Part shown: positions 3,865-21,823 of the stretch, in pieces | Layout of the letters: the number at the start of each line of letters is the position of its first letter | Position numbering within the stretch: position 1 is the stretch's first letter | NCBI GenBank assembly: GCA_031260485.1 | Contig: JAIRJU010000063.1 | Location: 1 to 35,765 of the forward strand | Length of the DNA stretch: 35,765 nt | Source of the DNA: Pseudomonadales bacterium | GTDB lineage: Bacteria > Pseudomonadota > Gammaproteobacteria > Pseudomonadales > Pseudohongiellaceae | Direction: 5' to 3' | Made by a program: the position numbers and the translations under genes | Notes under the pieces: generated by a model | What the model was told of the DNA's origin: nothing | What the model saw: the letters and a program-made list of their open reading frames with translations, nothing else | The model's database searches: none

Positions 3865-3985
3865 ATTCCCCTCCTGTGGAGGGGTGCCCGCAGGGCGGGG
3901 TGGTGCCGTAGGCAGAGGTGGCACACGGTAAATACCCCAACCACCCCGTCCGCCTACGGCGTCCACCCCTCCACAGGAGGGGAAT
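3865..3985. repeat. REP-like inverted pair, locus A
   Basis: Two copies of a GC-rich element in opposite orientation. Copy one is at 3865-3904 (ATTCCCCTCCTGTGGAGGGG core, ending GGGGTGGT). Copy two is its reverse complement at 3940-3985. Each copy contains an internal hairpin (CCCCTCC...GGAGGGG), and the pair can fold into a long stem. The same element recurs at 9387-9537 and 20455-20618. It lies between the convergent ends of ruvX and pilT, a usual place for REP/BIME-type repeats. The remaining bases from 3821 to 4069 hold no gene I can see. Confidence 0.85.
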
Positions 3986-6072: not shown

Positions 6073-9000
6073 TTAGAAACTATAGTTGAGCTGCACGCCA
6101 ATGGTGCGCGGGCGCGCCATGCTGCCGTTGATGTAGCCGCCGCTGTCGGCGTTGGCGCTGGTGCCGGGGAGGCGGTACGTCTGCTGATGGTTGGTCAGGT
6201 TGGTGACGTACAGCGCGTAATCGATACCTTGCACGTTGACGCCCGCGCGCATGTTCAGGTTGTAGTTGGACAGCGCCATCCAGGTCCAGGGGTTGTAGGC
6301 GTTGGTCAGACCGGCGTTGTAGCGGTCGAGTTCGGCCTGCGAGCCTTGCACGTAGGAATCCGTGTAGGAGTAATCGCCACGGATATAGGCATCGTTACCG
6401 CCCACCTGGAAATCGTACTGCGGGCTGATCGAGAACGACCAGTCAGGTACGCCACCCAGATTGTCGCCTTTCTTGAACACCACGTTGCTGGCGGGGTTGG
6501 TGGGATTGGATAGGATGTCTTCAGCGTAAGCGGCCTTGTTGTAGCTGACATTGATGCCCAGGCTCAGATCGCCGAAACGGCCCGTGGCCTGCACTTCCGC
6601 GCCCTTGGATACAGCGCTGCCCGCGTTGTTGAGGTAGCTGAAACCGCAGGCGACGTTCTGGCTGTACTGCATCTGGGTCCAGTCGATGTAGAACAGCGCA
6701 GAGTTGAGCTGCACCCGGCCGTCGAGAACCCGCGCCTTGTTACCGATTTCGTAACTGGTCACGGTGTCTTGCTTGTAGGTGAGCGGGCTTTGGGTCAAGC
6801 CCAGGTCAGCCAAAGCCTGTTGGCACTGGCCACTGGCGGGTACCGGCGGGTTCACGCCGCCCGGACGGAAGCCCTTGGAGTAGAGCGCATAGACCATGTT
6901 TCTGTCGTCGATCTGATACGACAAGCCTACCTTCGGCGTGGTGTTCGTCTCTTTCGATGACAAGATGGTGTACTGCACGCCGCAATGCGACGAATCGGGG
7001 CAGCCTGTGAGGTCGGTAGGGAACAGGATGTTCTGTACCGCTGGGTTGGTTAAATCCACCACTGGGTTAGTGGCCGAGTTCGGCTTGGTCGGATCCTGCG
7101 AGACGAACTGCACATCCGCCGCCAGCGGCATGAAGGCATCCTGCTCCATGCCGGGGATGGTGATGCGCGGCGGGAAGCCGGCAACGAGCGCACCGTACTG
7201 TTGGCGGAAATCCTGCTTGTACTTGTTGTAGCGCAGGCCCAGCGTCAGCGTCAGTTTGTCGGTGATGTCGTAGTTGCCTTCGGCGAACACCGCCCAGGTT
7301 TTCTCGCCCATCCACACTTCGCGGTCAGACACATCCTGCTGCCAGGTGTCGAACGCGCCAACGCCCGCGGGCGAATTCACGCCCCACTGCGGCAAGAAGT
7401 ACCCGCCCCCGCGCCAGATGCCGGAAAGGCCGCTCAAGTGCATGGCGACAGCGTTTTCGTTGCTGGTTTCACGGCCGTGCATGTGGATGTCGGAATCGCT
7501 GTAGTAAAGGCCGCCCACCCAAGACAGCGGGCCTCTGCCGTTGGAGGTGAAACGCAATTCCTCGCTCTTGGAGGTGCGCTGGTTTTCGTAGTTGTACCAA
7601 TCGGCATAGCCTGGGAAACCCGGTACGTAGCGGATGCCGCGGTAGCACGCCTGCGGATCGCCTGGGTTGAGGCCAGGGCGCAGCGCGTTGATGCCTTCCA
7701 CGCACTGCGTGGTGCCCCAGATATAGTTGCCAAGGTTACGGGTGCCGCCGCCGGTACCACCGGTGAAGGTGTAACCATGCGTTTCATCATCGACATAGCT
7801 GGTGATCGAACGCACCGAGAAGCCATCGAAGGTGCCGTCGATCGTCAAGGACGGCAGCATCAAACGGGTGTTGCGTGGCGAGGCCACGTACTGAACACCG
7901 CCAGGCTGGGTCGAGCTATACAAGCCGGTGCCAATGGAATCGTAGTTGTACCAGGGCATGGCGTTTTGGGTATGTGCCGGAATTTCCTGGTCGAGGCCCG
8001 CGTAATAGTACGTTACCGGGCTGCCGTTCTTGTCGACGAAATTCAAGCGGCCAACGCCCGCGGTGTAGTTGCCGCCCGCACCCGGACGGTTGCTGTTGGT
8101 GAAGCCCACCACCGGCTGCGAATTCGGGCCGTATTTGCTGTAATCAATCGCTGGGTTGGGAATACCGTTGCGGAACACGGAGCCCGACCAGGTGATCTGT
8201 TCCGAGGGCCCCCAGACGTTATTGCTGTCGTTGGAATAATCACCGCCCCAGTACAAGGCAGGCGTCAGCGACCAGGTGTTATCAATCTCCCACAACACGG
8301 AGGCGCGGACATATTTGGTTTCGTTCCAGTTGTTGTTTTCAGAGAACGTGAGGCCGTCGTAGACGCTCTTGGAATCGACCCAGCCGCCTTGCTTGCGGTA
8401 ATCGCCGCTGACACGGAAACCCAGCGTGTTTTCAACCAACGGGCCGCCGAACGCAAAGCCCACTTCCTTGGAGGGAGCGCCTTGTTCAGTGTTGGCACCA
8501 TCGAAACGCAATCTGCCGGAAAACTCGGTCAAGCTTGGTGTAGGCGTGATGAAACGGATCGTGCCGCCTTCGGAGGAATCGCCATACAAGGTGCCTTGCG
8601 GGCCGCGCAACACTTCGACGCGCTCAACATCATACAAATTGGGGAACGGCGCGCCGTTACCGGTTTGCAGACCGTTGATCATGCGGCGCTGTAGCGCGGT
8701 GTCGTCGAGATAGAAGCCGGTGGTTTGCGAGCCAACAGTGCTGCCGCCGCCAATGCCGCGGATAACGAAGCGCGGGTTACGATCGCCGCCGCTCTCCACG
8801 AATTGCAAGCCGGGCACTACGCGCTGAAGATCAGCACCAACGCGGATGCCCTGATTGGTCATGCTTTCCTGACTGACGGCGCTGATCGACATCGGCACCT
8901 GATTGAGAGCCGCCGACTGGCGCGTCGCCGTTACCGTGATTTCTTCGAGAATGCCGCCCGCGGCGGTAGGGTCCTGCTGCGCGTGAACAGACCCCGCCAT

Positions 9001-9081
9001 GAGGCTGGCCAGCGCCGAGAAACAAAATGGCAGGGCTGGGCGCAGCCCTTTGGATTGGAATCCACGATGTGCATGGAACAT
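6073..9081 (-). CDS. TonB-dependent receptor (paralogue A)
   Basis: A 1002-residue outer-membrane TBDR. Signal peptide to about residue 34 (SVHAQ), then LEEITVTATRQ at 45-55. The plug includes GADLQRVVPGLQF, FVIRGIGGGS, TGFYLDD, VERVEVLRGPQGTLYGD and GGTIRFIT. The long barrel ends in aromatic VQLNYSF, with the C-terminal Phe typical of Bam substrates. There is no STN domain, so no anti-sigma signalling is expected. The length is above the usual 700-900, with long loops. It is closely related to the TBDR at 12525-15548 throughout. A promoter block conserved with that paralogue lies upstream, and a terminator follows. Substrate unknown. Confidence 0.95.
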   Translation of the reverse strand: MFHAHRGFQSKGLRPALPFCFSALASLMAGSVHAQQDPTAAGGILEEITVTATRQSAALNQVPMSISAVSQESMTNQGIRVGADLQRVVPGLQFVESGGDRNPRFVIRGIGGGSTVGSQTTGFYLDDTALQRRMINGLQTGNGAPFPNLYDVERVEVLRGPQGTLYGDSSEGGTIRFITPTPSLTEFSGRLRFDGANTEQGAPSKEVGFAFGGPLVENTLGFRVSGDYRKQGGWVDSKSVYDGLTFSENNNWNETKYVRASVLWEIDNTWSLTPALYWGGDYSNDSNNVWGPSEQITWSGSVFRNGIPNPAIDYSKYGPNSQPVVGFTNSNRPGAGGNYTAGVGRLNFVDKNGSPVTYYYAGLDQEIPAHTQNAMPWYNYDSIGTGLYSSTQPGGVQYVASPRNTRLMLPSLTIDGTFDGFSVRSITSYVDDETHGYTFTGGTGGGTRNLGNYIWGTTQCVEGINALRPGLNPGDPQACYRGIRYVPGFPGYADWYNYENQRTSKSEELRFTSNGRGPLSWVGGLYYSDSDIHMHGRETSNENAVAMHLSGLSGIWRGGGYFLPQWGVNSPAGVGAFDTWQQDVSDREVWMGEKTWAVFAEGNYDITDKLTLTLGLRYNKYKQDFRQQYGALVAGFPPRITIPGMEQDAFMPLAADVQFVSQDPTKPNSATNPVVDLTNPAVQNILFPTDLTGCPDSSHCGVQYTILSSKETNTTPKVGLSYQIDDRNMVYALYSKGFRPGGVNPPVPASGQCQQALADLGLTQSPLTYKQDTVTSYEIGNKARVLDGRVQLNSALFYIDWTQMQYSQNVACGFSYLNNAGSAVSKGAEVQATGRFGDLSLGINVSYNKAAYAEDILSNPTNPASNVVFKKGDNLGGVPDWSFSISPQYDFQVGGNDAYIRGDYSYTDSYVQGSQAELDRYNAGLTNAYNPWTWMALSNYNLNMRAGVNVQGIDYALYVTNLTNHQQTYRLPGTSANADSGGYINGSMARPRTIGVQLNYSF

Positions 9082-9386: not shown

Positions 9387-9537
9387 ACCACCCGCCCTAC
9401 GGGCACCCCTCCACAGAAGGGGCATTTAGCGCCGGTGGCGATCGGTATGGCGGTGGAAAGGAGAGAAATGATCCCTCGCTTGCCGCAGCACAATTCCCCT
9501 CTGTGGAGGGGTGGCCGCCGTAGGCGGACGGGGTGGT
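9387..9537. repeat. REP-like inverted pair, locus B
   Basis: Copy one at 9387-9426 is in the reverse orientation (ACCACCCGCCC...). Copy two at 9493-9537 is in the forward orientation, ending GGACGGGGTGGT. They are the same element as at 3865 and 20455, but arranged head-to-head rather than tail-to-tail. The surrounding 9204-9544 region has no gene I can support. Confidence 0.8.
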
Positions 9538-9544
9538 GGGGAGT

Positions 9545-9635
9545 CTAAGCGCGGTAGGCTAGGCTGCTAAACCCAGCCTTTCCATCGACCGCCAGCCAGT
9601 TTGTGCTGGGTTTGGCAACCCGGCCTACCTTGCTG
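9545..9635. repeat. 91-bp direct repeat, left copy
   Basis: The first of two 91-bp copies (the other is at 10133-10223) that differ at about five positions. The unit is itself an imperfect inverted repeat, with GGTAGGCYRGG near one end and CCCGGCCTACC near the other, around AAACCCAGC and GCTGGGTTT, so it can fold into a long hairpin. The pair brackets the small membrane-protein gene at 9702-10103. I found no transposase. Confidence 0.85.
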
Positions 9636-9701
9636 AGAAGTATTGCTTGGCTTTTGCAGAGAAGCTGATGGCATAGCCCCACCATGCAAGTAGCAGAGGT
9701 A

Positions 9702-10103
9702 TTAAAATATGCCTAGCAAAGCCACCCCCCCCGCTTGCTGCGCAGCATTGTCGTAGACGGCTGTGTCCGGCCCAAAGATGCTAACTGCGGCAATGCCCAC
9801 CAACACCAATAGACCAAACCAGCGTCCCCACCGTTTTCGCCTGAAAATCCCGACGCAACCCGCCAAGAGCACCCCCACGGAAACGATTTGCAAGCCAATA
9901 ACAGCGGGTATCCCTTCTGGATTAGGAAGCTGACTGATATTTGGCACAACCAAAAGGAGATATTGCACCAAGTTGACAGAAGACATGAAACTGTACAGCA
10001 CAATAACGCCCAGCAGAAACCATATGGAAACTGGACGTGGATTGAGCGACCGAGGCGTTTCTGCATCAGCATTAACAACAGAAGGGCTGTTTGGATTTTT
10101 CAT
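9702..10103 (-). CDS. Small membrane protein, C terminus probably frameshifted at a G8 tract
   Basis: Not recognised by name. The 133-residue product has three membrane segments: about residues 26-52 (IWFLLGVIVLYSF...), 64-87, and 93-110. The minus-strand reading passes through eight consecutive G (plus-strand C run at 9723-9730) and stops nine codons later. One more G would keep the frame open to 9625. That would give a fourth hydrophobic helix, ILIPLLLAWWGYAISFS, and a basic tail, a much more natural end for such a protein. The frame is therefore either truly shifted, phase-variable, or a sequencing error. The extended stop falls inside the left 91-bp repeat. Likely start ATG 10103. Confidence 0.6.
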   Translation of the reverse strand: MKNPNSPSVVNADAETPRSLNPRPVSIWFLLGVIVLYSFMSSVNLVQYLLLVVPNISQLPNPEGIPAVIGLQIVSVGVLLAGCVGIFRRKRWGRWFGLLVLVGIAAVSIFGPDTAVYDNAAQQAGGVALLGIF

Positions 10104-10132
10104 TATGAATACCCAAAATTTAGTTAAAAATA

Positions 10133-10223
10133 CTAAGCGCGGTAGGCTGGGTTGTTAAACCCAGCTTTTCCATCGACCGCCAGCCAGTTTGTGCTGAGTT
10201 TGGCAACCCGGCCTACCTTGCTG
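10133..10223. repeat. 91-bp direct repeat, right copy
   Basis: The second copy of the element at 9545-9635, in the same orientation and about 95% identical by eye. It occupies most of the gap between the membrane-protein gene and the immunity gene. Its arms GGTAGGCTGGGTTGTTAAAC and GGCAACCCGGCCTACC are the inverted-repeat ends. Confidence 0.85.
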
Positions 10224-10236
10224 TGCTCAGCGACAT

Positions 10237-10521
10237 TTATTCAGCCCATATAAGGAATTTTTCAATCATTTCACCAAGATTCATTACTCCGCCAAATGCC
10301 TCAAAAACGTCCCCATTTCTGCGTGCAAAAATCCAATCACTATCTGATCTATCAATTTTAACTTCTTGAAATTTTTCATGCTCCATATTTGTATTTTTTA
10401 GGTCTATTTTTATAGACCACCCAGGATTATCTAAAGTATCAATTTTAACTCCGCAGTCTTCATGCCAACCATCTACACATTGCCGCGAAAACCAGGCGCA
10501 AAGCTTTGTGATGTTATCCAT
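10237..10521 (-). CDS. Imm53-type immunity protein
   Basis: A 94-residue acidic cytoplasmic protein. It matches, from memory, the Imm53 immunity family: an N-terminal LCAWFSRQCVDGWHEDCGVKI, the hallmark TLDNPGWSIKIDL, then DSDWIFARRNGDVFEAFGG and a C-terminal helix. Members neutralise the toxin tip of a neighbouring polymorphic toxin. Its ATG (10521-10519) shares one base with the TGA of the upstream toxin gene, so translation is coupled, the standard toxin-immunity layout. The gene is visibly AT-richer than its neighbours, which fits horizontal acquisition. The partner specificity is inferred from adjacency. Confidence 0.82.
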   Translation of the reverse strand: MDNITKLCAWFSRQCVDGWHEDCGVKIDTLDNPGWSIKIDLKNTNMEHEKFQEVKIDRSDSDWIFARRNGDVFEAFGGVMNLGEMIEKFLIWAE

Positions 10522-12392
10522 CAGTTACCCCTCCTTTCTATGGCTTTCTGTGCAGTCCGAATGTCATCCATCGTCGCTGCTCGAGTTATTCCAGGGCTCA
10601 GACTCGCTTGGCCGTTCGGCGCAACATTAAGGTCTTGAAATTTCACATGTGGAGTTGGAATTTCTTCACCGAGCGATTTCTCAAAATGAGCCTTTCCAGC
10701 GAGGTCAATCTGCATTCGGCCAGATGGAGTCATAACGGAGACGCGGTTCTTTCCAATTTGTTCAGCAAGATTGGCACCAGCCTCCTCAACGGTCAAAACT
10801 TTTGATGAAATACTCTCTGCAACGTCCAAAGCATGAGCCGCATCACCAACCTCATCCACCACCTTCGCAACATCCGCCGCCTCATTCACCACCTTGGTCG
10901 CATCAACCAACTTATCCGCGCCCAGCGCCACCTTGCCCACGATGCCAACGGCTTTGACCACTGACCCAAGCGGTACCACCGCCGACACCAGCGAGCCCGC
11001 CTTCTGCGCCGTGTTATTCAACGTGAACGGCTCGCTAACCAGATTCTTCGTGCGTAACTGGTTGGCCTCTGCCGCCAGCGCGTTGGCTTGTTCAACGTCG
11101 CCGTTGTTGTAGGCGTCCACGGCGCGCGCATCGCGCGCTGATGCTTCTCTCAAGGTGCCTGCAAGGAACTTGCCCGTCGTGATCGCCAGATTCCACGCAT
11201 TCGCGGGCAGATTACCTAGCCCTTTGAGAATGCCAAGGTCCAGGTTAAGCACACTGTCCACGCTGGCGCTGGCTACCTGATTGATGGCTTCGGCGGTACC
11301 GGTAGCGGCATTGACGACTTTCTGCCCGAGCGAGCTTGGGTTTTTGATAAGGTCGATAACGGTTTGAAGCGCGGCATCGCCCAACTCAGCCGCAGTTTCA
11401 ACCACCGTATCTACTGCGGCGCCGACCATTTGCGTGGTGGTATCGGCGACTTTTTCCACAAACGAGCGTGGGTCATTGGCGTCGTCGATGAGCGCTTGCA
11501 GGGCATCGTTGGGCCCAATCCTGTGTGTGGTAATGATGATCTCTTCTATGTCCGAGGGTGCGTCCTCATCATCGTTTTGGGCGAGCGTTGCATCATTTTT
11601 GGAATGATCGTCTAAGGGAGGAGGTTCATCCTCGATCTGGGCGACGTCGTCCGGCGCTTGATCTGAATTGCTGCTGCCTGCACCTGTGTTATCCCAGTCA
11701 AGATCAATGACTGAGGGAGCAAGCGCAGTTAAATTTAAGGGAAGTTCAGGCAATACCGGTTCAGGCTTGTGCCCGTAAATCTGGAGTACCTCTATAGCTT
11801 GGCTGTCTTCTTGGGCGTCGTTATCCGTTTCAGCGCCGCTGCCTGTGTAGTAGGTGGTTTCCTGAGCATCCCCGGTGCCGCTATCGTTCGTAAATAACCA
11901 ACCGATCGTTAAATCAAGGTCTAGTGAGGGCGCTTGCTTGCCGACAATGGTGATTTCTTCTATGGCCGGGTTGGCAGCGGGAAGCGGTGCGTAAACATTG
12001 ATTGCGTTTGGGTTCGGGGCGGGGCCATCGTCCTTGGCTGCTTCGGTGTCGTTCTGAGTGTCGTTAATGATCGTGATGGTGGTGGTGCCATCTGGTTCTT
12101 CGGTGCGGATTAAATTTTCTTCCGGAATTTCGGTCCAGCCTGTGTAGTAAGTGCCTTCATCCCAGTAGCCGCCGTCTCCGCCGCTACTAAATATGGCGCC
12201 CCAGCCTAAGGTGTCTGCGGCGTCGTAGGAGCCGTAAACGTTGAGCACCTCGATGCCCGTAGGCATACCGTAGACGTCAACTTCGATCCATGCCTCGACC
12301 CAATCATTGATTATTCCCCGAAACCAATTACCCGTCACTGGATCAATGCCTTCAACCATGTGATCGACCCACATGCCAATGTACATACCCAT
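10521..12392 (-). CDS. Polymorphic-toxin-like protein with TonB-box-like repeats
   Basis: A 623-residue protein with no signal peptide. Residues 1-290 are acidic and low-complexity. They contain repeated short motifs: IEVLNVYG (47-54), INVYAP (131-136), IEEITIVG (144-151), IEVLQIYG (200-207) and IEEIIITT (282-289). Residues 300-545 are alanine-rich and helical, as in pre-toxin regions. The last 75 residues, after GKNRVSVMTPSG, form a compact tip with DLAGKAHFEKS, EEIPTPHVKF and ATMDDIRTAQK. This recalls toxin tips labelled 'polymorphic toxin type 24', a resemblance I give low weight. Imm53 follows with a 1-base overlap. The ribosome site GAGGG fits the second ATG (12386) better than the first, which it abuts. 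No Rhs, VgrG, PAAR, filamentous-haemagglutinin or LXG domain is seen, so the delivery route is unknown. Confidence 0.75.
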   Translation of the reverse strand: MGMYIGMWVDHMVEGIDPVTGNWFRGIINDWVEAWIEVDVYGMPTGIEVLNVYGSYDAADTLGWGAIFSSGGDGGYWDEGTYYTGWTEIPEENLIRTEEPDGTTTITIINDTQNDTEAAKDDGPAPNPNAINVYAPLPAANPAIEEITIVGKQAPSLDLDLTIGWLFTNDSGTGDAQETTYYTGSGAETDNDAQEDSQAIEVLQIYGHKPEPVLPELPLNLTALAPSVIDLDWDNTGAGSSNSDQAPDDVAQIEDEPPPLDDHSKNDATLAQNDDEDAPSDIEEIIITTHRIGPNDALQALIDDANDPRSFVEKVADTTTQMVGAAVDTVVETAAELGDAALQTVIDLIKNPSSLGQKVVNAATGTAEAINQVASASVDSVLNLDLGILKGLGNLPANAWNLAITTGKFLAGTLREASARDARAVDAYNNGDVEQANALAAEANQLRTKNLVSEPFTLNNTAQKAGSLVSAVVPLGSVVKAVGIVGKVALGADKLVDATKVVNEAADVAKVVDEVGDAAHALDVAESISSKVLTVEEAGANLAEQIGKNRVSVMTPSGRMQIDLAGKAHFEKSLGEEIPTPHVKFQDLNVAPNGQASLSPGITRAATMDDIRTAQKAIERRGN

Positions 12393-12524: not shown

Positions 12525-15500
12525 TTAGAAATCGTAGTTCACCTGCACCCCAATCGTGCGAGGGCGCAACATAATACCGCCCATGTAGTTGCTGTCGCCG
12601 TTGTCAGTAGTGCCGGTGTAACGGTGTACTGCTTCGCGGTTGTTGAGGTTGTTGATGTAAAGCGAGTAGCCGACCCCATTCACGTTGATGCCAGCACGCG
12701 CATTGAGGTTGTAGTTCGGCAGCGTCTTTTCGGTGATCGGGTTATAGGCGTTGGCGATCCCCTGCGCAGCCTTTTCCTTTTCCGCCAACGAGGCATTCTT
12801 GTAAGACGGCGTATACGAATAATCGAAACGTACATAGCCATCGTTGTCGGCCACGCGGAAGTCATATTGCGGGCTGACCGAGAAAGTCCACGGCGCGGTG
12901 TTACCGATATTGTCGCCCTTCATCCGAGTAACGGTGAGCAGGCCGCCCGGCTTGTTCGGGTTTGAATAAATGGTTTCTGCGTATTGCGCTCTGGTGTAAC
13001 CGGCGTTGAAGCCGATACCAAAAGGTCCAAAACGGCCACTGACCTGAAGTTCGCCGCCCTTGGAAACAGCGGAGCCCGCGTTGTTGATATAGCTGAAACC
13101 GCAGGCCACGTTCTGGGTGTACTGCATATTGGTCCAGTCGATATAGAACAGCGCGCTATTGACCTGCACCGTGCCATCGAGTACCCGCAGACGCGCCTTG
13201 TTACCGAGTTCATAGCTGGTCACCTGGTCTTGATTGTAGGTGAGCGGGCTCTGTTCGAGGCCCAGATCGGCCAAAGCCTGCTGACACTGGCCGCTGGCCG
13301 GTACCGGCGGGTTCACGCCACCGGGGCGGAAACCTTTGGTGTAGATGCCGTACACCATGTTGGTGTCGCTGATCTGATAGCCGAGGGCCACCTTCGGCGT
13401 GGTATTGGTTTCAGTCGATGCCAGCCGCGTGTACTGCATGTTGCAATCGGGCGAGTTTGGGCAACCTTCAACGTCGGTGGGGAACATCACCTTGATGATG
13501 TTCGGGTTGAGCAGATCCACGATCGGGTTAGTGGCCGAATTTGGCTTGGTGGGATCGGCCGAAACTGCTTGGACATTCGCCGCCAAGGGGAAGAAGCCAT
13601 CAGCCTCCAGGCCCGGTATGGTGATGCGCTGCGGCAAACCGGCTACCAGCGCGCCATATTGCTGACGGAAGTTCTGCTTGTACTTGTTATAGCGCAAGCC
13701 CAAGGTCAGGGTCAGTTTGTCGGTGATGTCGTAGTTGCCTTCGGCGAATATGGCGGAGGTTTTCTCATCCGTCCACGATTCGCGGTCGGACACGTCTTGC
13801 TGCCAGGTATCGAAGGCGCCGGTGCCGGCCGGCGTGTAGATGCCCCACTGCGGCAGATAGTACCCGCCGCCGCGCCAGATGCTGGAGACGCCGCTCAAGA
13901 ACATGGCGCCCGCGTTTTCGTTACTGGTTTCGCGGCCGTGCATGTGGATCGTGGAATCGCTGAAATACAAGCCTCCTACCCAGCTCAGCCGGCCTTTGCT
14001 ATTGGACGAGAAGCGCAGTTCCTCGCTGGTCATCTTGCGCTGGCTTTCGTAGTTGTACCAATCGGCATATTGCGGGAAGCCTGGCACGTAACGGGTGCTG
14101 CGGTAACAGCCCAAGGGATCGCCGGGGTTGAGGCCAGGGCGCGGGCGGTTGACGTTCGGATCGCAGGCCGTGGTACCCCAGATGTAAGGTGTGCCCAGGT
14201 TACGGGTACCGCCGTTGCCGCCGCTGAAGGAATAACCGTTGGTGCGGTCACTGACATAGCTGGTGACCGACTTGACCGCGAACCAATCGAGATCGACATC
14301 CACCACCAAGGACGGCAGCGTCAAGCGCGTGGTGCGCGGCGAGGGAATGTACACGGCATCGCCGGGAGCGGTCGATTTGTAATAGCCGTTGCCGTTGGAA
14401 TCGAAGTTGTACCAAGGCATGGCATTCTGGGTGAAGGCCGGGACTTCCTGGTCGAGCGCGGCGTAGTAGTAGGTGCGCGAAACGCCGTTGGGATCGTTGT
14501 ACGCGATCTGCCCCACCCCTGCGCGGTAATTGCCGTTGGCGGTAGGGCGGCCCGCCGTGGTGAAGCCCACCACCGGCTTGGAGTTCGGGCCGTATTTGCT
14601 GTAATCGATCGCTGGGTTAGGAATACCGCTGCGGATGATCGAACCCGACCAGGAGATCTGTTCCGAAGGGCTCATGACCGTGCCGTCGTCGTTGGAGTAA
14701 TCCACGCCGCTATAGATAGCAGGCATGATCGACACCCGGTCGTTCACTTGCCACAGCGTTGCCAGGCGCACGTATTTGGATTCGGACCAGTTGATGTTTT
14801 CAGCGAAGGTTTCGCCGTTATACAAGGACTTGGAATCGACATAGCCGCCGGTGCGGGTGTAGTTGCCGCTAACGCGGAAACCCAGAACATCCGGGATCAG
14901 CGGGCCGCCGAAGGCCAGACCGATTTCCTTGGAGGGTGCGCCTTTGTCAGTCTGGGAACCATCGAGACGCATCCTGCCGCTGTATTCGGTCAGGCTGGGC
15001 GTGGGGGTGATGAAACGGATCGTGCCGCCTTCGGAGGAATCGCCGTACAGCGTGCCTTGCGGACCACGCAGCACTTCCACACGCGCCACGTCGTAAAGGT
15101 TGGGGAAGGGCGAGCCGCCGCCGGTCAGAAGGCCCGGCACCGTGCGCCGCTGTAGCGCGGCATCATCGAGATAAAAACCGGTCGTTGCAGAACCGGTGCC
15201 GCTGCTGATGCCGCGGATGGTGAAGTTCGGGTTACGGTCACCGCCGCCTAATGAAAATTGCAAGCCAGGCACCAAACGCTGAAGGTCGGCGCCGCTCTTG
15301 ATGCCTTGCAAGGTCAAACTTTCCTGGCTGAGTGCGCTGATCGACATCGGAATGCTGTTGGCGCTTGCTTCTTGGCGCGTCGCCGTTACCGTGATTTCTT
15401 CGAGCAGTGCGGCGCCTGCCGCGGTATCCCGAACCTGCGCCTGAAGCGTTGAAGCCGCTATGAAGCTTGCCAGCGCCGTAAGGCAGAAGGGTAGCGGCGT

Positions 15501-15548
15501 GAAACGTCTGGATCGAACTGGAACAGATGAGTGATGCGAGTGAAACAT
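12525..15548 (-). CDS. TonB-dependent receptor (paralogue B)
   Basis: A 1007-residue TBDR strongly similar to the one at 6073-9081 along its whole length. Signal peptide to about residue 38 (STLQAQ), LEEITVTATRQ at 49-59, plug motifs GADLQRLVPGLQF, FTIRGISSG, VARVEVLRGPQGTLYGD and GGTIRFITPTPS, and C-terminal VQVNYDF. Shared barrel blocks with the paralogue include QNAMPWYN, GETFAENINW-like strands, KLTLTLGLRYNKYKQ and VYGIYTKGFRPGGVNPP. There is no STN domain. It has its own promoter block (15624-15671) and terminator. The two genes look like a duplication now separated by the toxin-immunity locus. Substrate unknown. Confidence 0.95.
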   Translation of the reverse strand: MFHSHHSSVPVRSRRFTPLPFCLTALASFIAASTLQAQVRDTAAGAALLEEITVTATRQEASANSIPMSISALSQESLTLQGIKSGADLQRLVPGLQFSLGGGDRNPNFTIRGISSGTGSATTGFYLDDAALQRRTVPGLLTGGGSPFPNLYDVARVEVLRGPQGTLYGDSSEGGTIRFITPTPSLTEYSGRMRLDGSQTDKGAPSKEIGLAFGGPLIPDVLGFRVSGNYTRTGGYVDSKSLYNGETFAENINWSESKYVRLATLWQVNDRVSIMPAIYSGVDYSNDDGTVMSPSEQISWSGSIIRSGIPNPAIDYSKYGPNSKPVVGFTTAGRPTANGNYRAGVGQIAYNDPNGVSRTYYYAALDQEVPAFTQNAMPWYNFDSNGNGYYKSTAPGDAVYIPSPRTTRLTLPSLVVDVDLDWFAVKSVTSYVSDRTNGYSFSGGNGGTRNLGTPYIWGTTACDPNVNRPRPGLNPGDPLGCYRSTRYVPGFPQYADWYNYESQRKMTSEELRFSSNSKGRLSWVGGLYFSDSTIHMHGRETSNENAGAMFLSGVSSIWRGGGYYLPQWGIYTPAGTGAFDTWQQDVSDRESWTDEKTSAIFAEGNYDITDKLTLTLGLRYNKYKQNFRQQYGALVAGLPQRITIPGLEADGFFPLAANVQAVSADPTKPNSATNPIVDLLNPNIIKVMFPTDVEGCPNSPDCNMQYTRLASTETNTTPKVALGYQISDTNMVYGIYTKGFRPGGVNPPVPASGQCQQALADLGLEQSPLTYNQDQVTSYELGNKARLRVLDGTVQVNSALFYIDWTNMQYTQNVACGFSYINNAGSAVSKGGELQVSGRFGPFGIGFNAGYTRAQYAETIYSNPNKPGGLLTVTRMKGDNIGNTAPWTFSVSPQYDFRVADNDGYVRFDYSYTPSYKNASLAEKEKAAQGIANAYNPITEKTLPNYNLNARAGINVNGVGYSLYINNLNNREAVHRYTGTTDNGDSNYMGGIMLRPRTIGVQVNYDF

Positions 15549-20454: not shown

Positions 20455-20618
20455 ATTCCCCTCCTGTGGAGGGGTGGCCGCCGCAGGCGGACGGGGTGGT
20501 AGCCGGACTGTGGCACGAGCTTTTGTTATGGAACCAGATCAACAGAAAATGATGCAAGGTGTTGGCGTTGTTGCAGGACCACCCCGCCCTGACGGGCACC
20601 CCTCCACAGGAGGGGAAT
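20455..20618. repeat. REP-like inverted pair, locus C, inside the start region of hemW
   Basis: The forward copy is at 20455-20500 (starting directly after the rdgB stop) and the reverse copy at 20578-20618. About 77 unique bases lie between them, containing the likely hemW start ATG (20528). It is the same element as at 3865 and 9387. Here it is read through in frame by hemW (CGGVAAAGG and GPPRPDGHPSTGGES are its translations). Confidence 0.85.
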
Positions 20619-21823
20619 CCGCACAAGCCACACCCAGCGAAATTGAAAATGCTGCTGACGAATCTGCACGCGCGCGGGAAGGCGCCGCCAAGCTGCCACC
20701 GCTCAGCCTCTATGTGCATGTGCCGTGGTGTCTGCGCAAATGTCCGTATTGTGATTTCAATTCACATCAACGCCCCGAAGTATTGCCCGAAACCGACTAC
20801 ATCGCGGCACTACTCGATGATCTGCGCACCGATCTGCCTTATGCGCAAGGCCGCGAATTGGTCAGCATTTTCTTCGGCGGCGGCACACCCTCACTGTTCA
20901 GCGCGGCAAGTTTCACCACATTTTTGGACGAAGTACATAAAATCATCCCCTGCGCCGCCGACATCGAGATCACGCTGGAAGCCAACCCCGGCACCTTCGA
21001 GCAGGAACGCTTCAACGCCTACCGCCGCGCTGGCATCAATCGTCTTTCCATCGGCATTCAAAGTTTCGAGCCTGCGCAACTCTTACGCCTTGGCCGTGTG
21101 CATGATCGTAGCGAAGCGCTACGCGCCGCTGACATCGCGCGCCGCGCTGGTTTCGACAACTTCAATCTCGATTTGATGTTTGGTCTGCCTGGGCAAAATC
21201 TCGACGCGGCGCTTGCCGATCTCCGCCAGGCCCTTGCCTGCGCACCGACGCATGTGTCGTGGTATCAACTCACCATCGAACCCAACACCGAATTCTACCG
21301 CCGCCCGCCCACCCTGCCTGGCGACGAAAACGTGGCCGACATGCAGGAAGCCGGTATCACCCTTTTGGCAGAACACGGCTTTGTCCGCTACGAAATTTCC
21401 GCCTACGCACAAGCGAACCGTCATAGCCGGCACAACCGCAATTATTGGGAATTCGGCGACTATCTCGGCATCGGCGCTGGCGCGCATGGCAAGTTCACCG
21501 GCGCCGATGGCGCGATTCACCGCACCCGCAAAACACTCATGCCGTCGCATTATCTGCGCGGTGCAGACGGCAGGCTCGCGCAAACGCGAATGATTCCCGT
21601 GGAGGAGTTGCCGTTTGAATTTCTGCTCAATGCGCTGCGCCTGCGTGAAGGCGTGCCCGCCGCGCTCTTTAGCGCACGTACCGGCCTCGATCTCGATGCC
21701 GCCTTGGGCCCGGCGCTTACCCGCCTGCGCCGCGATGGTTTGCTCGTGCCCGGCTCAACGCGGCTTTGCACCACACCGCGCGGGTACAACCACCTCAACA
21801 CGGTGCTGGAAAGACTGTTGTGA
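20528..21823 (+). CDS. hemW: Radical SAM haem chaperone HemW
   Basis: HemW, related to coproporphyrinogen oxidase HemN, binds haem and a 4Fe-4S cluster and is thought to deliver haem to respiratory enzymes. The conserved part begins KLPPLSLYVHVPWCLRKCPY with the CxxxCxxC cluster motif. It continues with FFGGGTPSLF, EANPGTF, GINRLSIGIQSF, LDLMFGLPGQ, WYQLTIEPNTEF and a C-terminal HemW domain (YWEFGDYLGIGAGAHGKF). Homologues start just before KLPPLSLY. Here no in-frame ATG or GTG exists there, so translation must begin upstream in repeat-derived sequence. ATG 20528 adds about 56 residues; GTG 20441, which overlaps rdgB, is an alternative. No start has a convincing ribosome site. Confidence 0.9.
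   Translation: MEPDQQKMMQGVGVVAGPPRPDGHPSTGGESAQATPSEIENAADESARAREGAAKLPPLSLYVHVPWCLRKCPYCDFNSHQRPEVLPETDYIAALLDDLRTDLPYAQGRELVSIFFGGGTPSLFSAASFTTFLDEVHKIIPCAADIEITLEANPGTFEQERFNAYRRAGINRLSIGIQSFEPAQLLRLGRVHDRSEALRAADIARRAGFDNFNLDLMFGLPGQNLDAALADLRQALACAPTHVSWYQLTIEPNTEFYRRPPTLPGDENVADMQEAGITLLAEHGFVRYEISAYAQANRHSRHNRNYWEFGDYLGIGAGAHGKFTGADGAIHRTRKTLMPSHYLRGADGRLAQTRMIPVEELPFEFLLNALRLREGVPAALFSARTGLDLDAALGPALTRLRRDGLLVPGSTRLCTTPRGYNHLNTVLERLL

Follow-up and report, generated by a model that had tools for sequence, protein, structure and literature searches.

Two nearly identical 91-bp repeats stand on either side of one small gene in a toxin-immunity locus of a Pseudohongiellaceae bacterium, and the question that they raise is whether they mark the ends of a cassette that can be gained or lost as a unit, or are two copies of a mobile element lacking its own transposase. 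The window, by which we mean the whole stretch of DNA that was analysed (35,765 nucleotides), carries both copies, and the genome from which it comes is called the source genome below. We consider that both repeats are REPINs, i.e., doublets of GTAG-tagged REP sequences copied by a RAYT transposase and inserted into extragenic DNA, two of which flank one small gene, and we put the probability of this reading at roughly 0.9.

The repeat pair and the toxin-immunity locus

Read on the minus strand, the locus consists of a toxin-like gene (12392-10521), an Imm53 gene (10521-10237), repeat copy 2, a membrane-protein ORF, repeat copy 1, a palindrome of another family (~9537-9387), and a TonB-dependent receptor gene. 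The features are as follows.

9387-9537 (about), no strand assigned: diverged palindromic repeat of a second family with CCYCCTGTGGAGGGGTGSC arms, ~7 bp from copy 1 and not part of the REPIN
9545-9635, plus strand: REPIN copy 1, a head-to-head pair of GTAG REPs with a 27-nt spacer, abutting the 3' end of the membrane-protein frame
9553-9577, plus strand: GGTAGGCTAGGCTGCTAAACCCAGC, the left REP arm of copy 1, with 2 mismatches against the family pattern
9605-9629, minus strand: right REP arm of copy 1, GGTAGGCCGGGTTGCCAAACCCAGC, whose GTAG gives the TAG stop (9625-9627) to the continuing frame of the membrane gene
9702-10103, minus strand: hydrophobic (membrane) ORF of 133 aa, of no known family
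9725-9732, no strand assigned: tract of eight C, read as G8 in the gene, site of the probable frame change
10133-10223, plus strand: REPIN copy 2, between the Imm53 gene (end 10237) and the start codon of the membrane ORF (10103)
10141-10165, plus strand: left REP arm of copy 2, GGTAGGCTGGGTTGTTAAACCCAGC
10193-10217, minus strand: right REP arm of copy 2, GGTAGGCCGGGTTGCCAAACTCAGC, 1 mismatch
10237-10521, minus strand: Imm53 immunity protein gene (PF15580, E 6e-27)
10521-12392, minus strand: polymorphic-toxin-like protein of 623 aa

An earlier note on this DNA had described two near-identical 91-bp direct repeats, each able to form a long hairpin, with exactly one gene between them and within a toxin locus, and this description was confirmed. 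Both copies are 91 nt long, lie in direct orientation 588 bp apart (start to start), and are 95% identical, with mismatches at positions 17, 20, 23, 34, and 65 and a longest mismatch-free stretch of 30 nt. Beyond the 91 bp the identity of their flanks is at chance level (13/50 on either side), so that the two copies are not what is left of a larger segmental duplication. The predicted folding energies are -46.1 kcal/mol for one copy and -47.3 kcal/mol for the other as plus-strand RNA, and -48.0 and -42.0 kcal/mol as minus-strand RNA; compared with shuffled sequence these folds have z values of -4.5 to -6.6 over both strands (-5 to -6.6 for the plus strand), and 0 shuffles folded equally well. 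The only listed ORF between the copies is the membrane-protein ORF at 9702-10103, which is probably truncated as listed, and the site lies next to the Imm53 gene and the polymorphic-toxin-like gene.

The body of the toxin-like protein is shared by paralogues at several other loci of the source genome, one of which ends in a colicin E5 RNase domain, while no homologue was found in 10 congeners and the paralogues occur within the source genome only. Two TonB-dependent receptor genes (6073-9081 and 12525-15548), transcribed from the same strand, enclose the toxin locus, the surroundings of which include a pilT-like gene and, on the opposite side, a proC-like gene.

Anatomy of the repeats

Each repeat is composed of two GTAG-tagged palindromes (GGTAGGCYGGGTTGnnAAACCCRGC) set head-to-head around the 27-nt spacer. 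The arm itself consists of GTAG and a short palindrome, GCTGGGTT-n4-AACCCAGC, which is present in the left arm of copy 2 and altered in the left arm of copy 1; the two arms are mutually inverted, and the whole doublet folds as one hairpin with 29 consensus pairs. Among the five full copies of the source genome (described below), GTAG is found at the arm base, with the tags pointing outward, in 8 of the 10 arms, including all four arms in the window, while the copy on contig C150 has degenerate arms on both sides and has lost intact GTAG. C89 and T90 are invariant in 5/5 copies and match, as far as sequence goes, the CT dinucleotide at which TnpA-REP reportedly cleaves (PMC8266576). No two-sided compensatory changes were seen among the five copies. 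An Rfam search with the repeat returned no family, the best hit being a chance match to a miRNA (E 0.62).

REPINs were described as REP doublets that form hairpins (Bertels and Rainey 2011, PMC3116915), and the window repeats resemble them in being inverted REP pairs with a short spacer and a hairpin fold, in their extragenic position, in occurring mostly as doublets, and in their linkage to RAYT genes in other genomes; they differ in that there are five full copies here and that the cognate RAYT was not seen in the incomplete source assembly. They are also like the GTAG-tagged head-to-head REP dimers (PMC3733652, 2013), which have outer GTAGs, a spacer conserved within a genome, and the dimer as the main form. 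With the REPtron of TnpA-REP (PMC8266576) they share the CT beside the element and, in Methylobacter luteus, a RAYT gene with REPINs of the same arms on both sides, but the window locus has REPINs and no RAYT. The arm sequence is as in Methylobacter, whereas the spacer is particular to the source genome. The repeats thus add a further member to the known REPIN class, and their identity is settled.

Copies, relatives, and RAYT genes

Scanning the source assembly (357 contigs, 88.8% complete) for the arm with up to 3 mismatches gave 11 arms, which make up five doublets (two on C43 and one each on C150, C28, and C269) and one half-copy (C328) in unrelated contexts; the reversed pattern, scanned as a control in the same genome, gave 0 matches. 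Five full copies are few for a REPIN family, which counts against the REPIN explanation. Within the 81-bp core, copy 2 has 5 differences from copy 1 and 6 from the copy on C28. The two window copies are therefore hardly more similar to one another than to one at another site, and judging from these sequences, separate insertions would fit as well as local copying. The covariance model built from the five copies also matched related but different GTAG doublets in the source genome and one congener.

The contigs with the other copies deserve description. On C28 (L004 2320-2440), a decayed REPIN arm adjoins a doublet of a different GTAG class between two paralogous genes, and on C269 (L005 860-1010), the REPIN lies between two ~28 bp copies of the 3' end of a neighbouring gene, which have two differences. 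On C150 (L003/L032), the REPIN is found between two DUF6572 genes of an array that also encodes a toxin with a colicin E5 domain and an ImmE5-like protein, and downstream the body of this toxin recurs as a degraded fragment. Two of the five REPIN loci of the source genome are toxin-immunity arrays, as against ~0.7% of the assembly (p ~5e-4), a post hoc value that depends on a rough 22 kb estimate of the extent of toxin loci and that we do not claim as a finding.

The earlier note had proposed a search of the genome and its relatives for the 91-bp element. This search yielded the five full copies and the half-copy in its own genome and 0 matches to the 91-mer in 95 relatives. Of 392 genomes of the order, just three others matched the arm when up to 2 mismatches were allowed, once each. 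The exact arm pattern was found in 44 stretches in a scan of GTDB species genomes, the contigs of which may omit the source genome, and the bearers are M. luteus, M. marinus, Methylobacter sp. BlB1, Methylolobus aquaticus, one betaproteobacterial MAG, and one gammaproteobacterial MAG; viral contigs had no arm match. Nearly all of these stretches are doublets that share the arms of the window repeats but have different spacers, and 45 of the 50 doublets of the wider arm family in other genomes are outside ORFs of ≥150 aa. REPIN pairs ≤1.5 kb apart in these genomes bracket two ABC-transporter ATPases, a RAYT, a small membrane protein, and a Tse2-like gene, and such brackets around unrelated genes are to be expected from the insertion of REPINs into extragenic gaps.

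When REPs surround a RAYT gene, the two are usually cognate (PMC3116915, PMC3733652). In M. luteus, the RAYT gene (L129:1115-1651, minus strand; protein P0006) has two REPINs of the same arms downstream and one upstream, and in the gammaproteobacterial MAG a REPIN of the same arms lies 94 bp upstream of the start codon of a RAYT (NF047646, 211 bits; cut-off 80). A RAYT of the associated type was not found in the source assembly, and this absence is weak evidence because the assembly is incomplete and in many contigs. The only RAYT-like gene of the source assembly, at the edge of C182, is cut by the contig end; it was considered as the mobiliser and rejected, as the same contig has no such REP.

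It is the head-to-head GTAG palindromes, the strong fold, the dispersed copies, and the RAYT genes beside the same arms elsewhere that together identify the repeats as REPINs. The suggestion of the earlier note that they might be copies of a transposase-less mobile element is thus well supported, with copies at unrelated sites and, in other genomes, genes of a transposase family next to these arms. By analogy with TnpA-REP, a RAYT (TnpA-REP, a Y1/HUH transposase) would recognise the single-stranded arm, cut at the conserved CT beside the element (positions 89-90), copy the REPIN as a single-stranded hairpin, and place it in extragenic DNA. The window pair would then have arisen by two independent insertions, and not by co-duplication, on either side of a small gene at the 3' end of the toxin-immunity operon. 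As a likely by-effect, the transcribed hairpins at the gene ends would influence how the mRNA decays, or how far transcription reads through, in the region from Imm53 to the membrane gene. What this analysis provides is the identification of the repeats, with an arm family that is common to distant proteobacteria and RAYT genes that adjoin the same arms in two genomes.

The bracketed gene and other explanations

No homologue of the membrane-protein ORF was found in 137 family genomes; 369 genomes of the class gave a single partial match, a marginal one, and plasmids and viral contigs gave none. A REPIN-bracketed membrane protein of M. luteus was considered as its relative and dropped (BLASTP E 25). 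The listed ORF stops shortly past the G8 run, while another frame runs on, still hydrophobic, to the TAG that is provided by the GTAG of the right arm of copy 1. The membrane gene is therefore probably frame-broken at the G8 homopolymer, so that the listed ORF is truncated, and the break could be due to an indel, a length-variable tract, or an assembly error. The reading frame as it was before the break would then have its 3' end at copy 1, in whose GTAG the continuing frame ends.

Two other origins for the hairpins themselves have to be weighed against the REPIN reading. Palindromic, multicopy, and non-coding as they are, the repeats might be taken for ordinary MITEs of a DDE transposase, with terminal inverted repeats and a target-site duplication, and the C269 copy, lying as it does between ~28 bp repeats with two differences, fits such an origin; but the window copies have no flanking direct repeats or matching target-site duplications, and the arms are made of GTAG and a small palindrome, the same arms adjoining RAYT genes in other genomes, and we regard this origin as highly improbable. 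The idea that the hairpins have been retained for a function as RNA in the operon, as attenuators or stabilisers of 3' ends between the Imm53 and membrane genes, and are not passive insertions, draws on the position of copy 2, 13 nt past the Imm53 stop codon and 29 nt ahead of the next start codon, on the nearly identical placement of the C150 copy, which lies 9 nt and 30 nt from its two neighbouring genes in a second immunity array, and on the strong fold of the transcribed strand. We nevertheless find it unlikely, since intrinsic terminators, like promoters, were at chance level only, the five copies lack compensatory changes, the element is not conserved in relatives, and REPINs are generally intergenic anyway.

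The cassette idea holds that the repeats delimit an optional gene, which could be deleted together with one repeat (588 bp) by homologous recombination or slippage, or could move as a REPIN-bounded segment. The direct orientation, the 95% identity, and the identical 30-nt run of the copies speak for it, and the bracketed gene has no counterpart in the 137 family genomes. A further point in its favour comes from Methylobacter sp. BlB1 (L043 6272-7803 and L071 1-2708), in which a RAYT locus has several REPINs and, between them, a Tse2/Tsi2-like pair and an OLD-family gene (best PADLOC match AriA), while the syntenic locus of M. luteus (L076), with a backbone 92.5% identical over 4.5 kb, has only a REPIN, a REPIN, and a RAYT. 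Against the idea, REPIN pairs of Methylobacter bracket ordinary genes too, e.g., those of ABC-transporter ATPases, as would be expected if REPINs simply fill extragenic gaps. The earlier note had named, as evidence against a cassette, single copies at unrelated intergenic sites together with a want of alleles lacking the gene; the dispersed copies in the source genome are of the former kind, and as to the latter, no gene-less allele was found, but the toxin protein is missing from the 10 congeners and so there is no locus to compare. Taken together, we judge it rather doubtful that the repeats delimit a cassette, and see the two-REPIN arrangement around the gene as largely ordinary.

A wider proposal can be made from two hints, namely that 2/5 of the source REPIN loci are toxin-immunity arrays and that the toxin and defence genes between the REPINs of BlB1 are missing from the syntenic M. 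luteus locus: REPINs of this arm family might serve as cassette boundaries in toxin-immunity and defence loci, as small integration platforms that work via recombination or RAYT-driven transfer. We found no paper that makes a link between REPs and polymorphic toxins, or between REPINs and toxin or defence genes, and we hold the proposal to be quite improbable. The Methylobacter comparison offers a specific instance, open to testing, in which the toxin and defence genes between REPINs vary, and if REPIN arrays do bound cassettes, these abundant repeats would share in the turnover of toxin and defence genes.

Other palindromic repeats were noted in passing. Further GTAG doublets with longer stems are found in the source genome (L181-L189) and in a congener (L190-L193, G002), and some of them sit within a common flanking sequence, CATGACATTCGTATGATC...CGTTATCGTGTCGTG. 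The second palindromic family, AATTCCCCTCCTGTGGAGGGGTGCCCGC...GGCCACCCCTCCACAGGAGGGGAATT, is roughly 120-165 bp long and has 0 matches in 10 congeners and 135 arm matches in the source genome; its copies in the window are at 3866-3984, about 9387-9537, and 20456-20620.
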